40,908 nt of DNA from an uncultured Bacteroidota bacterium (lineage in GTDB: Bacteria > Bacteroidota > Bacteroidia > AKYH767-A > JABDAW01). The stretch is taken from contig CAIMUP010000002.1 in the NCBI GenBank assembly GCA_903844645.1, positions 1 to 40,908 on the forward strand, written 5' to 3'. The notes beneath the pieces were generated by a model. It was not told the origin of the DNA and searched no databases. It saw only the letters and a program-made list of their open reading frames with translations. Shown one piece after another: positions 10,920-40,847 of this stretch (position 1 is its first letter; the number at the start of each line of letters is the position of its first letter). The position numbers and the translations under genes are program-made.

Positions 10920-11158
10920 ATAAGTCTTTCCATTACGGATAGAATTTCTGCACTTGCTTAATTGGCATGTTTCGCATTTCGTAATAATTATTCGCTTTAA
11001 TCGCTGCAAATCTATAGAATTCCCCGAAACAATTCTCCCCATCAACCCAAATTTCCCGCTCTTTTGTTCCAATCCCCGCTCCCCACGCCCCTTTCCACAC
11101 TTCCACCAATCTTTGTTATTAAAGAAAAAAGGATGGATGCAGACGATAAAAATTTTTT

Positions 11159-11375
11159 ACTCAAGAATTCTTCCGGATTACTCAAGCATTCTTCCGGATT
11201 ACTCAAGAATTCTTCTGGATTACTCAAGAATTCTTCTGGATTACTCAAGCATTCTTCCGGATTACTCAAGCATTCTTCCGGATTACTCAAGCATTCTTCC
11301 GGATTACTCAAGCATTCCGCCGGATTACTCAAGCATTCCATCGGATTACTCAAGTATTCCGTCGGATTACTCAAG
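11159..11375. repeat. 21-bp tandem array 2
   Basis: Ten full 21-bp units start at 11159 and repeat every 21 bases to 11368, then a partial unit. The unit reads ACTCAAGCATTC followed by TTCCGGATT; substitutions cluster in the TTC position and in the last three units. As 21 is a multiple of three and few stops occur, several frames stay open and encode heptapeptide repeats, which are not genes. Confidence 0.92.
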
Positions 11376-15062: not shown

Positions 15063-15313
15063 TTCGGGGGAGGATTTAGGAAATCCTCCCCCGATTTTTC
15101 CAAATCCTCCCCCGATTTTTCCAAAACTCCCCCCGAATTTTCCAAACCTCCCCCCGAATTTTCCAAACCTCCCCCCGAATTTCTGAAATTCTCCCCCGAA
15201 TTTCCGAAATCCTCCTCCGAATTTCCGAAATCCTCCTCCGAATTTCTGAAATCCTCCTCCGAATTTCTGAAATCCTCCCCCGAATTTCCGAAAACCTCCC
15301 CCGATTTTCGGGG
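15063..15313. repeat. 21-bp tandem array 3 with an inverted head unit
   Basis: Ten full 21-bp units start at 15085 and repeat to 15294, plus a partial unit. The core is CCTCCCCCGAATTTC then GAAAT. The array begins with an inverted unit (15063-15080): TTCGGGGGAGGATTT faces AAATCCTCCCCCGA, forming a strong hairpin. It ends in CCCCGATTTTCGGGG, another small palindrome. It lies between convergent genes and could end transcription from both sides. Confidence 0.9.
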
Positions 15314-18501: not shown

Positions 18502-18723
18502 AAATCCCTCGCAAGGAAATGGAAATCCCTCGCAAGGGAATTGAAATCCCTCGCAAGGGAATTGAAATCCCTCGCAAGGGAATTGAAATCCCTCGTAAGG
18601 GAATGGAAATCCCTCGCAAGGGAATGGAAATCCCTCGCAAGGGAATGGAAATCCCTCGCAAGGGAATGGAAATCCCTCGCAAGGGAATAGAAATCCCTCG
18701 CAAGGGGATGGGAATCCCTCGCA
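18502..18723. repeat. 21-bp tandem array 4, palindromic unit
   Basis: Ten full units start at 18502 and repeat every 21 bp, then a partial unit. Each contains ATCCCT-CGCA-AGGGAAT, a small hairpin in almost every unit. The units alternate in the last bases between ATGG and ATTG in blocks. The array lies between a T9SS remnant and the promoter of the GloVer gene. Confidence 0.93.
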
Positions 18724-21240: not shown

Positions 21241-21602
21241 TCCTTGAAACTGTCTTAAAACTTGATTTGCAGGTGACTAATGTTTTGTTGATTTCAAAAA
21301 AACTTCTCTTACATTTCAAAAAACTTCTCCTGAATCCAAAAAACTTTTGGGATATACTATAAATCATGCCTTTATGAAAACAAAACATCGGACTCCAATT
21401 CCTAAATTTTTGACTCAAGGGGAGAATATTTCATGTTATATGACCAAAATTCACCTTATTTCAAAAAAACTTCTGTTGCATATCACTAATGTTCTTCTGA
21501 ATTCAGAAAAACTTCTCCTGAATTCAAAAAAACTTCTCCTGCATTTCAAAAAAGTTTTGTTACATTTCAAAAAAGTTTTGTTGTTTTCAAAAAAACTTTT
21601 GG
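21241..21602. repeat. 21-bp tandem array 5, in two blocks
   Basis: Block one, 21241-21345, has five loose units. Block two, 21450-21596, has seven units starting at 21450, then a partial unit. The core is TTCTCCTG then TTCAAAAAAAC. Unit 21471-21491 resembles 21262-21282 (both end CTAATG), so the two blocks seem to be copies of one older array. The open frame it creates (KLLLHFK heptads) is not considered a gene. Confidence 0.8.
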
Positions 21603-23246: not shown

Positions 23247-23474
23247 TAACAATCGTAGTAAATCACTTGGTTTAGACCGATTGTTAAGTAACAATCGCTC
23301 CATAGTAGTTGCAATGCATCGATTGTTAAGTAACAATCGCTCCATAGTAGTTGCAATGCATCGATTGTTAAGTAACAATCGCTCCATAGTAGTTGCAATG
23401 CATCGATTGTTAAGTAACAATCGCTATAAAGCAGTTGCTTTACTACGATTGTTACTTACCGATCGCTCTAAACC
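23247..23474. repeat. 21/42-bp palindromic array 6
   Basis: Units alternate between a palindromic 21-mer (CGATTGTTAAGTAACAATCG plus one base) and a second 21-mer (CATAGTAGTTGCAATGC core). Three identical 42-bp periods run from 23278, and a fourth palindrome is at 23404. Flanking units are degenerate. AACAATCGTAGTAAA (23249-23263) faces its perfect complement TTTACTACGATTGTT (23439-23453), and GGTTTAGA (23269) faces TCTAAACC (23467), so the array as a whole can fold back on itself. It lies between divergently read ychF and nothing on the other side; no gene overlaps it. Confidence 0.9.
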
Positions 23475-29739: not shown

Positions 29740-29844
29740 CGATAAAAACATGGCTGGCAGCGATAAAAACATGGCTGGCAGCGATAAAAACATGGCTGGC
29801 AGCGATTAAAACATCTAAATCAGAGGCAAAAACATCTAAGGTTT
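29740..29844. repeat. 21-bp tandem array 8a
   Basis: Three identical units start at 29740, 29761 and 29782 (CGATAAAAACATGGCTGGCA plus one base), and two diverged units follow at 29803 and 29824, with ACATCTAA replacing the middle. Confidence 0.88.
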
Positions 29845-29878
29845 TGCCCTCCAAATGGCAGTTTTTAATCTCCTTTTG

Positions 29879-29990
29879 GATGCTCTTATTAAAGGAGTGG
29901 AATTTTTTATTCCCTATTGGGATACTCTTATTAAAGGAGCGGAATTTTTTATTCCTTATTTTGATGCCTTTATTAATAGTGTGGAATTGG
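29879..29990. repeat. 42-bp tandem array 8b
   Basis: 42-bp units start at 29879 and 29921, and a third diverged unit at 29963. The core is TCTTATTAAAGGAG then GGAATTTTTTATTCC, the latter a palindrome (GGAAT/ATTCC). It begins 35 bp after array 8a, with an unrelated sequence but twice its period. A 14-residue repeat appears in the open frame; it is not considered a gene because the dnaX promoter and start lie inside that frame's extension. Confidence 0.85.
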
Positions 29991-34737: not shown

Positions 34738-34780
34738 TAGCCCCTGACGGATGAAAAATCGGTCAGGGGCTATCTTTTTT
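34738..34780 (+). terminator. Strong rho-independent terminator
   Basis: TAGCCCCTGAC pairs with GTCAGGGGCTA around an A-rich loop and is followed by TCTTTTTT. It is 25 bp after the M16 stop and abuts the RelE gene's stop on the other strand, so it serves both. Confidence 0.9.
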
Positions 34781-35045
34781 AAGGGAAGTACCGGTAAATT
34801 TCTTTTCTTATAAGAAACCGGGCAATTTCGATTTGATTATTATTGTTATAAATCCCAAAACGATAATCCCCAATACGAATCCTATAATGGTGTTTGTAGC
34901 CGATTAATTTTCTAAGGTTTTGTATCTCGGATAATGATTTTGCATTTTCGATTTCTTCAATAACAGAAAGGATTTTCCCCTTCAATTTTTTGTCCCTTAT
35001 TTTAGAAATATCCTTGTTGAAGGAATCGCTGAAGATGACCTCCAT
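34779..35045 (-). CDS. RelE/ParE-superfamily toxin
   Basis: 88 residues. MEVIFSDSFNKDISKIRDKK and LRKLIGYKHHYRIRIGDYRF then GIYNNNNQIEIARFLIRKEIY match the compact fold of RelE-type mRNA interferases (basic patch, RIRIGDYR, aromatic C-terminus). The ending YRYFP lies near the active site in this fold. It is second in the operon, 2 bp after the antitoxin gene. It probably cleaves mRNA at the ribosome; a gyrase (ParE) target cannot be excluded from sequence. Confidence 0.88.
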   Translation of the reverse strand: MEVIFSDSFNKDISKIRDKKLKGKILSVIEEIENAKSLSEIQNLRKLIGYKHHYRIRIGDYRFGIYNNNNQIEIARFLIRKEIYRYFP

Positions 35046-35047
35046 CC

Positions 35048-35245
35048 TTAGTTTTTCAGCTTCTTCATGATAGTTTCGCGAGAAACTTTTTTTGATTTCC
35101 TTCCCTCGTCAATAGCATTGGCAAGACCAATATCTTCCACCATTTCGAGAGTCAGTTCCGTCCCTTTAATGTTCATTCGGTGTGCAATTTCGAGGAGTAA
35201 TTTGGCTTCCCGTTGGTCTTTAGCTTCCAATAAAATGTGTGTCAT
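35048..35245 (-). CDS. Antitoxin partner of the RelE-type toxin
   Basis: 65 residues: LEAKDQREAKLLLEIAHRMN, then IKGTELTLEMVEDIGLANAI and a lysine-rich end (DEGRKSKKVSRETIMKKLKN). The length, charge pattern and first position in the operon fit an antitoxin; I do not recognise a clear ribbon-helix-helix or HTH motif. A TATCTTTG promoter lies 45 bp upstream at 35290-35297. Confidence 0.82.
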   Translation of the reverse strand: MTHILLEAKDQREAKLLLEIAHRMNIKGTELTLEMVEDIGLANAIDEGRKSKKVSRETIMKKLKN

Positions 35246-35297: not shown

Positions 35298-35467
35298 AGG
35301 AAAATAGAGGTAATCATTTTACTTTTCGCCCTCTTCCGTTCTTAATTCAAGAGAATTATTCAAGGTATCTCGATAGTGTGATTTGGTATCGGTATTATCG
35401 AATTATGTACCGCATTCGGCTTATTAAATACCCCGAAAACTGGATGCAATTCCTCGATCATTAGATT

Positions 35468-35777
35468 CCAAGTCGAGACCTTCTAACCAAGTATCGTATC
35501 CATTTACCACTTTATTATAATGATATGGTCATTCATTAAAATGAATAACTATATCATTATAATGAAAAACCCGTTTACTATAATGAATAACTACATCACT
35601 ATAATGAATGACTAATTACCAGACATGAATGACCACTTCATGTGTGGTAATTAGTCTTTCATTATAGTAAAAGACTATTTCATTATACTAAAATAGTTAT
35701 TCATTATAATATAGTGGTATTTCACTTCAATAAAGTGGTAAATGGGTACGATACTTGGTTTAAAGGTCTCGACTTGG
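35468..35777. repeat. 310-bp inverted repeat built of 21-bp units (array 9)
   Basis: CCAAGTCGAGACC (35468-35480) is matched by GGTCTCGACTTGG (35765-35777). CATTTACCACTTTATT (35501-35516) is matched by AATAAAGTGGTAAATG (35729-35744). The arms are made of AATGAATAAC and ATTATA-bearing 21-mers. The left arm has three full units before AATGAATGACTAATTACC; the right arm, read as its complement, has two. The inner dyad (TAATTACCA / TGGTAATTA, centre 35633) is therefore displaced by 10.5 bp from the outer centre (35622.5). It lies between the toxin-antitoxin promoter and the gene at 36032. Confidence 0.88.
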
Positions 35778-36031
35778 CGTCAAATAGAGGCGGTATTTAT
35801 TTCCACAGATGCAGTAATTAATAGAAGAGATTCGTCATTTTGTATAGAAGTCAAGGTATTTAATCCGGTACTGACGGAATTCCTACAAATACTCTCGAAA
35901 TGGGAATAAATTCCTTTGAAAAATAGGCAGGGGATTACGAAAACTATTTCGGATAAGAAGGGATTGAATTACGATCTGTCTTCATCCATTTCAACCCCGA
36001 TGATCCGTGTTGTATTTTCGGATAGTGGTAC
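35778..36031. other. Intergenic, nothing recognised
   Basis: AT-rich non-coding DNA with no gene or clear repeat; faint resemblance to the left flank of the inverted repeat (AATACC and GACTT motifs) is not convincing. Confidence 0.4.
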
Positions 36032-36724
36032 TTAATTTACCATCTTTTGGATCACATCAGACATGCCTTGCGGTCCTTTATTGGTGATTAATTCATGCCT
36101 GAAATAGGCATATTTTCCAGGCGTCAAACCAACTATTTTGGTTTTGCATTTTACCGTTGGCTGCAACCTGATCCATGAAATTCCATCCTCGGAATACATC
36201 CAATCGTGACAGGAATAACGCCCGCCTCCGCCGGCTTTCAAATTGATAGAACCGGTCTCAATTCCATCTTTTACTTTAAAGACATTCTTCTGCTGGATAG
36301 CGATTCCTTTGACATGAAATTTTCCGGATTGAATAATAATAATCGCGTTAGTTCTGTCATTTTCAGAGGCAATTTGGAACTGATACATCACCCCTTTGAT
36401 GGCATTATGCAGACTCATCCAGGCACCCTTGCGCTCATCCCCTTTTGACTTTTTATACGCCTTCAACAAGTTGCTGATGTTGAGAATTGTGGCATCATCA
36501 ATCACCACCCATACATTGCCTGTAATGGCTTTCAGAATCTCACCACTCTGTTTGCATCTGTCGCCAAATTTCTTCCCGAATTTAGTAATCGCAGTGATGA
36601 CATGGGTGATGGAAGGCAACGCCATCATCACGATATGCACGCCGCGATACTTCTTTTTACAGTGATTCCTTTTGAACCATTCCTTGCCCGCTTCCGAATT
36701 GATAACATAAATTTTACTTCCCAT
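36032..36724 (-). CDS. Hypothetical protein with a fibronectin-III-like C-terminus
   Basis: 230 residues. The start MGSKIYVINSEAGKEWFKRN and the basic N-terminal half (KKFGDRCKQSGEILK, KAYKKSKGDERKGAWMS) have no family I recognise. The last 90 residues (WMYSEDGISWIRLQPTVKCK, then TKIVGLTPGKYAYFRHELI) look like a fibronectin type III or similar beta-sandwich strand pattern. No signal peptide. Promoter TAAATTTG (36788-36795) lies 64 bp upstream. The same build occurs in some uncharacterised Bacteroidota proteins; role unknown. Confidence 0.7.
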   Translation of the reverse strand: MGSKIYVINSEAGKEWFKRNHCKKKYRGVHIVMMALPSITHVITAITKFGKKFGDRCKQSGEILKAITGNVWVVIDDATILNISNLLKAYKKSKGDERKGAWMSLHNAIKGVMYQFQIASENDRTNAIIIIQSGKFHVKGIAIQQKNVFKVKDGIETGSINLKAGGGGRYSCHDWMYSEDGISWIRLQPTVKCKTKIVGLTPGKYAYFRHELITNKGPQGMSDVIQKMVN

Positions 36725-39869: not shown

Positions 39870-40673
39870 ATGTCTGCAATACCTTATTCCCAATTCTTAT
39901 TCCGTGCCAAGAGTTACCTGAAATACTTCCTCCATGCCAAAAGCAAGCACCGCATCCATTCTCCCTTCGTCTTTGATTTATTCACCAATGTTATTACGAA
40001 TGAGGGTGAATATTATGCTTATGAAAGATTGGAACGGTTGCGGCAGCGGCTATTGAATAATCATGCTGAAATTGTAGTAACAGATTTCGGTGCCGGCTCA
40101 TCCATTAATAATTCTACGAAGAGAAAAATTTCCAATATTGCCCATCATTCCCTGCAACCGGAGAAGTATGCCAAGCTCCTCTTTCGATTGATTAATAATT
40201 TCCAGCCAAAGCAGGTGCTTGAATTGGGTACTTCCCTCGGGCTTACGACATTATACCAAAGCATTCCCGTTCCCAATGCCCAATTCATCACCCTCGAAGG
40301 TTGTCCCACGACTGCCGAAATTGCTCAAGAGAATTTCAATCATTTCAAACAAGAGAACATCAAAATCATAGTCGGCAATTTCGATGAAACATTGGCGAAA
40401 GCCCTTATAGATATGCCGCTGCTCGACTATGTTTTCTTTGATGGCAACCATCGCTACGAACCCACGATGTGGTATTTCAATCAATGTATTGAAAACATTC
40501 ATGAAGATACCGTTTTTATCTTCGATGATATTCATTGGAGCAAAGAAATGGAACAGGCTTGGAATGAAATCAGGCAAGATTCGAGAGTAACGATCACCAT
40601 TGATTTATTCAAAATAGGTATTGTTTTCTTCCGCAAGGGGCAGGTGAAACAGGATTTTGTTTTGCGATATTAA
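39870..40673 (+). CDS. Class I SAM-dependent methyltransferase
   Basis: 267 residues from the ATG at 39870 (MSAIPYSQFLFRAKSYLKYF). The longer frame begins at a TTG inside the promoter palindrome and is rejected. VLELGTSLGLTTLYQSI is the SAM-binding loop. FITLEGCPTTAEIAQENF follows as the acidic loop, and LLDYVFFDGNHRYEPTMWYF resembles O-methyltransferases. The N-terminal KSKHRIHSPFVFDLFTNVI is typical of a Bacteroidota subgroup. The substrate is unknown. Array 10 starts at its stop codon. Confidence 0.88.
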   Translation: MSAIPYSQFLFRAKSYLKYFLHAKSKHRIHSPFVFDLFTNVITNEGEYYAYERLERLRQRLLNNHAEIVVTDFGAGSSINNSTKRKISNIAHHSLQPEKYAKLLFRLINNFQPKQVLELGTSLGLTTLYQSIPVPNAQFITLEGCPTTAEIAQENFNHFKQENIKIIVGNFDETLAKALIDMPLLDYVFFDGNHRYEPTMWYFNQCIENIHEDTVFIFDDIHWSKEMEQAWNEIRQDSRVTITIDLFKIGIVFFRKGQVKQDFVLRY

Positions 40674-40847
40674 GGGGTACGAAAGTGATTTGAAGGGGTA
40701 GGAAGGCATTATGAAGGGGTGGGAAAGCGTTTTGAGGGTATCGGAACACGATTTGAAGGGGTGGGAAGGCATTTTGAAGGTATCGGAAGGCGATTTGAAG
40801 GGGTGGGAAAGCGTTTTGAAGGGGTGGGAAAGCGTTTTGAAGGGGTG
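40672..40847. repeat. 21-bp tandem array 10
   Basis: Eight 21-bp units start at 40672 and repeat to 40839, then a partial unit. The core is AAGGGGTGGGAAAGCGTTTTG, shortened here as AAGGGGTGGGAA then GCGTTTTG. The first unit begins inside the methyltransferase stop codon TAA. Two units carry GGTATCGG in place of GGGTGGG. Confidence 0.9.

Follow-up and report, generated by a model that had tools for sequence, protein, structure and literature searches.

The 310-bp inverted repeat located at positions 35468-35777 of the window (the whole stretch analysed, 40,908 nt from one contig of an uncultured Bacteroidota bacterium) is probably an intergenic array of the constant-length, variable-sequence class of 21-bp tandem repeats that has been turned back on itself. 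We favour replication template switching in a quasi-palindromic 21-bp array as the process that produced the folded array. No selected function is proposed for the window copy, where a hairpin transcript or a cruciform would rather be a by-product.

The array was delimited by repeat search, folding, arm alignment and dyad computation. The inverted repeat is present where the earlier note had placed it, and the repeat search resolved it into two pairs of arms. The outer arms (35460-35593 and 35652-35785, 134 nt) are 80% complementary with a dyad centre at 35622.5, and the inner arms (35532-35629 and 35637-35734) are 76% complementary with a centre at 35633.0. The long pairing blocks described in the outer arms are thus real but imperfect, about 80% of the positions being complementary. 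The 310 bp are divided exactly into 46 + 5x21 + 29 + 4x21 + 46. A non-tandem left outer arm of 46 nt (35468-35513, plus strand), whose partner in the repeat search and the arm alignment is the right outer arm of 46 nt (35732-35777, minus strand), is followed by a left tandem block (35514-35618, plus strand) of five 21-bp units: ATTATAATGATATGGTCATTC, ATTAAAATGAATAACTATATC, ATTATAATGAAAAACCCGTTT, ACTATAATGAATAACTACATC and ACTATAATGAATGACTAATTA. Then come the apex hairpin CCAGACATGAATGACCACTTCATGTGTGG of 29 nt (35619-35647), on which the inner dyad is centred at 35633, and a right tandem block (35648-35731, minus strand) with four inverted 21-bp units, against five in the left block. From this exact division it follows that the arms are unequal by one 21-bp unit and that a distance of 10.5 bp separates the outer dyad from the inner one. 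Direct computation confirmed the 10.5-bp shift between the dyad centres, and the best arm-to-arm alignment contains a single gap of 21 nt. The inequality of exactly one unit and the displacement of the inner dyad had both been claimed on first inspection, together with change in whole 21-bp units, and all three agree with these data; the count of three full 21-mers versus two is corrected here to five versus four. The loop GACC of the apex is strand-specific and common to the other genomic copies described below.

The RNA fold of the repeat has an energy of -159.8 kcal/mol, against a mean of -54.7 for shuffled sequences (z = -23), and the DNA fold gives z = -21.6. In the minimum-energy fold, a part of the longer arm is bulged out as a side hairpin. 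A cruciform or an RNA hairpin may be formed by this repeat. A reading as a transcription terminator was rejected (one plus-strand match versus 0.6 expected by chance), as was a CRISPR array, the 21-mers being arranged head-to-tail without unique spacers. A plasmid or phage origin was also rejected, DNA searches having given no match.

Arrays of this type are found throughout the genus, and the window array is not a local singularity. Tandem Repeats Finder, applied to up to 1.09 Mb of the 3.84-Mb genome (a draft of 143 contigs), detected 248 arrays with a period of 21 or a multiple of 21; these correspond to 22.8 arrays per 100 kb, cover 4.1% of bases and would extrapolate to about 870 arrays per genome. 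Densities of 18.6 and 14.3 per 100 kb were obtained for two genomes of the same genus, against 2.2 per 100 kb for one further genus of the family; two other families of the order, sampled over 77 kb, yielded none, and the 21/42-bp arrays are nearly absent from the other genera sampled. In 711 kb searched for periods of 10 or more, period 21 accounts for 174 rows, period 42 for 75 and period 63 for 28. The same survey contains 106 distinct units, so many arrays share one length while the unit sequence varies by locus. Within the arrays, the base match is 0.80 at lag 42 and 0.70 at lag 21 versus 0.29 (near background) at lags 20 and 22, and nothing stands out at lags 10 or 11. ORFs of at least 150 aa hold 21% of array bases versus 81% of all bases and, with genes called by a simple hexamer score rather than by a published gene finder, 134 of 158 arrays are not mainly within a called gene; the arrays are thus mostly noncoding and intergenic. 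They occupy 78 of the 119 gaps of at least 400 bp, and whether the gap is convergent, divergent or tandem makes no clear difference. All the long inverted repeats detected in the samples of the genus (15 of 15) overlap 21-bp arrays, and none was found in the comparison samples.

Other arrays of the window with a period of 21 or 42 have their own units (6-110, 11157-11375, 15080-15309, 18502-18723, 21497-21601, 23247-23468, 29740-29988 and 40664-40847). The first and last of these illustrate that contigs often begin or end in 21-bp arrays, which is also seen at the starts of L098, L104, L105, L106, L108 and L110. One array unit is common to the end of C9 and the start of C13, and another to the starts of C1 and C8, which suggests adjacent contigs with truncated arrays. 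Since many contigs of this draft end in arrays, longer arrays are probably missing from it. In G001, a genome of the same genus, three loci (L119 19-493, L172 9540-10113 and L173 13046-13597) display the common inverted flanks AAGCAGCGGGCTGCCGCTACTATCGGGGCTA around unrelated array units, and these flanks look like a repeated element or a gene end beside the arrays. The arrays present in other Bacteroidota loci are short, again most often with a period of 21 or 22. In gut and rumen Bacteroidaceae or Bacteroidales (L070 5799-5865 and 10514-10613, L071, L073, L075, L083 12897-12984), they have the period 22 rather than 21.

Subirana and Messeguer reportedly published an earlier bacterial survey of such repeats in J. 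Bacteriol. in 2020. Constant-length repeats of 20-21 nt and variable sequence have been described in Bacillus and other bacteria, where they remain unexplained; their length was equated with two helical turns, and nucleoid proteins or small RNAs were suggested (Subirana and Messeguer, PMC8161180). By the features tested, the window array belongs to this class: at least four regular repeats are present in each block (five on the left, four on the right), and the noncoding location, the 20-21-nt unit, the many arrays of unrelated sequences, the species-specific families and the related double-size units are all shared. It differs from the published class by the number of arrays (about 870 per genome by extrapolation), by lengths of strictly 21 or 42 bp and by its occurrence in a genus of Bacteroidota. 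Moreover, the window copy is turned back on itself and its arms are homogenised, and a text search of PMC8161180 finds no mention of palindromes or hairpins.

A search of the genome itself detected two further full-length copies, C13:63361-63668 (78% identical to the window copy, hereafter C2) and C101:17803-18053 (71% identical), as well as a weak match at C8. At C8, there is a more distant inverted 21-bp array (L010 1887-2054) with 46-nt arms that are 91% complementary. In 60 related genomes, two of which belong to the same genus, the element was not found, except for one match of 24 bases in a distant genome. All three copies are intergenic. Judging by sequence knowledge, we take the flanking genes to be ribBA and a gene resembling SPOR-domain proteins for C13, and rlmD and clpS for C101. 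The 10.5-bp offset between outer and inner dyads was computed in all three copies, with the longer arm always on the same side of the interior. The 21-bp register permits only offsets in multiples of 10.5, and the identity of both value and side argues for a common, older origin of the one-unit difference, which probably predates the spread of the copies. The earlier note had proposed that change happened in whole 21-bp units after, or together with, the inversion; the whole units stand, and the step was probably not made at this locus, the offset being shared by three copies. Between rlmD and clpS, this genome has a gap of about 0.8 kb containing the element; in two genomes of the same genus, the gap measures about 75 bp, lacks the element and comprises only the clpS promoter region. 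A promoter-like sequence beside clpS is kept in this genome. The remainder of the inserted stretch appears as if made of decayed arrays, because its self-match is highest at lags 42 and 21.

The two arms of each copy have changed together. In the outer arm, two copies differ from one another at 5 to 7 of 37 columns, in each case with matching changes in both arms, including a cluster of three bases (CCC/GTG), so that the outer arms are homogenised within each of the three copies. The arms of C13 are 88% identical to each other versus 74-77% to the C2 arms. The C2 arms are 77% alike overall, no more than the arms of C2 and C13 (74-77%); a within-copy excess of identity is evident for the outer arms, as well as for C13 and C101. 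The flanks record a second type of event. A flank F (35355-35458, minus strand), located to the left of the window copy, is homologous to the right flank of C13 (76%, z = 25 over shuffles), and the left flank of C101 matches this same C13 flank (z = 7.9). The opposite flanks (C2 right and C13 left) match weakly (z = 6). Flank F is therefore on the left in C2 and C101 and on the right in C13, whereas the orientation of the interior, judged by the apex loop and the side of the longer arm, is the same in all three; for C101 this orientation is weakly determined (129 versus 116 bits). This swap indicates that the interior was inverted relative to its flanks in one lineage. A comparable inversion distinguishes the single orthologous intergenic region where two species both carry an array (L142 5778-6224 in C14 of G000 versus L123 from 9968 in C4 of G002). 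One species has this 42-bp array inverted, the scaffold ACGGTCGT is conserved in both, and the palindrome CCTGAARTTTCAGG replaces CCAGAATTCTGG in most units of the sister species. Strand flips were rejected as a general property of the arrays, only three of 150 arrays with non-palindromic units showing both strands, from which fold-back is also considered uncommon.

Matched arms, inversion of the interior and an inverted ortholog with a replaced palindrome together point to template switching between inverted arms. Since the 21-mers of the window array carry a short palindromic core (about CATTATAATG), either strand could form a fold of its own, and a nascent strand that has stalled could switch template inside the array. 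Such a switch would copy one arm onto the other, giving homogenised arms, and would flip the interior between the arms, giving spacer inversion. Re-annealing out of register by one whole repeat would leave the arms unequal by 21 bp and the dyads 10.5 bp apart. The element would then have reached at least three loci of the genome already folded and already unequal. Homogenised arms and inverted spacers are products of template switching at inverted repeats in yeast (PMC8604942), and quasipalindromes become more perfect by this process in E. coli (PMC7202029). Arm homogenisation, spacer inversion and clustered matched changes are common to the present repeat and to quasipalindrome mutations (PMC7202029, PMC8604942, PMC8794818). 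Contrary to those short inverted repeats, the present one consists of 310 bp of tandem units and therefore slips in whole 21-bp registers. Template switching as the agent, and two helical turns as the basis of the 21-bp length, are inferred.

Template switching alone leaves the dispersal to three loci and the strict 21-bp length unexplained. It is conceivable, if rather unlikely, that some replication or repair activity, either dedicated or deregulated, operates in the genus, generating and turning over arrays in any intergenic sequence by increments of exactly two (or four) helical turns, and folding and flipping them at palindromes. If so, the inverted repeat of the window would be a trapped product of such an activity. 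The loss of a hairpin-processing nuclease was not retained on the basis of SbcD, which is uninformative because it lies below the cut-off in all 41 genomes. The large subunit of ExoVII (TIGR00237) was not found in G000, G001 and G002, the array-rich genus (one of these genomes being 58% complete), whereas the sister genus G003, poor in arrays, has it. About half of the order lacks this subunit as well, and the correlation with its absence is considered as a lead only.

Apart from replication, the repeat could be a non-autonomous MITE-like element, the 46-nt outer arms acting as terminal inverted repeats and the 21-mers as filler. Three dispersed copies, the empty orthologous rlmD-clpS site and the presence of flanking inverted repeats of 60-100 bp around some other arrays of the genus are in line with this, but an excess of such flanks is seen in only about 10% of arrays. 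Furthermore, no target-site duplication was seen by eye in the three copies, homology continues past the ends on one side, into flank F, and the copies share 71-78% identity without any recent group of near-identical members; we judge this origin unlikely. REP/BIME and MITE elements are dispersed intergenic palindromes, a character shared by the present repeat, which nevertheless differs from them by its few copies, by the target duplication not seen by eye and by the lack of a high-copy tagged palindrome. REP/BIME proper, a high-copy palindrome of 20-40 nt, is rejected, since, besides this copy, the genome search gave just two full-length ones and a single weak match.

Somewhat less probable still is a structured RNA or regulatory hairpin maintained by selection, transcribed with a stem of some 150 bp and kept by compensatory changes. 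The very stable fold would agree with it, as would the paired changes in both arms between copies and the over-representation of stems of at least 6 pairs in the array units (15 of 106 versus 2.6 expected). However, an Rfam search of the window gave no match, the three copies adjoin unrelated genes, the element is missing from the 60 other genomes searched apart from the 24-base match, and the arrays have no clear orientation preference relative to genes. Neither does a hairpin need an asymmetric half-register offset, and template switching mimics compensation, producing multibase compensatory changes in RNA genes (PMC8794818). With only three copies, selection for a hairpin is inseparable from template-switch copying as the cause of arm matching.

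An array serving a DNA-binding nucleoid protein, with sites spaced by two turns on one face of the helix, appears quite improbable. A comparable proposal exists for the Bacillus repeats (PMC8161180), and the strict 21/42 spacing, with lags 20 and 22 near background, would suit it. Against it, no common motif was noticed among the 106 different unit sequences, lags 10 or 11 give no signal, and the inverted arms are left unexplained. As for an assembly artefact in which a read or contig end was duplicated in inverted orientation, many contigs of the genome do end in 21-bp arrays, but about 20% of positions differ between the arms and the same architecture recurs in two diverged copies at other loci, which argues strongly against it; the repeat also lies well inside the contig with genes on both sides, and this origin is hardly credible.

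The repeat lies between a toxin-antitoxin pair and a hypothetical gene, as first described. On the left are a RelB-like antitoxin gene (35048-35245, minus strand; weak Pfam match, under the gathering score) and a ParE-type toxin gene (34779-35045, minus strand). On the right, a 230-aa gene without Pfam match (36032-36724, minus strand) ends towards the repeat at a distance of 254 bp. The neighbouring toxin-antitoxin genes are considered incidental, since 21-bp arrays fill the intergenic DNA genus-wide and the remaining copies adjoin unrelated genes; a tie to this operon is thus rejected. A defence system was also discarded, the neighbours having given no PADLOC match.

The Borg tandem repeats (PMC9879509) are also independently arising, scattered arrays, partly intergenic and gained or lost between relatives; their units are perfect, A-enriched and of variable length, unlike the diverged units of fixed length described here. 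What appears to be new is the folded-back form, the half-register offset conserved between copies and the record of inversions: no description was found in the literature searched, which is not proof of novelty. These observations also caution against taking covariation between the arms of a long inverted repeat, by itself, as evidence for a functional RNA. The reason for the existence of fixed-length bacterial tandem repeats of arbitrary sequence is an open question (PMC8161180). In this genus of very high array density, the fold-back copies and the inverted ortholog record whole-unit steps, arm copying and flipping, and this record points to a testable origin of the arrays in replication slippage and template switching.
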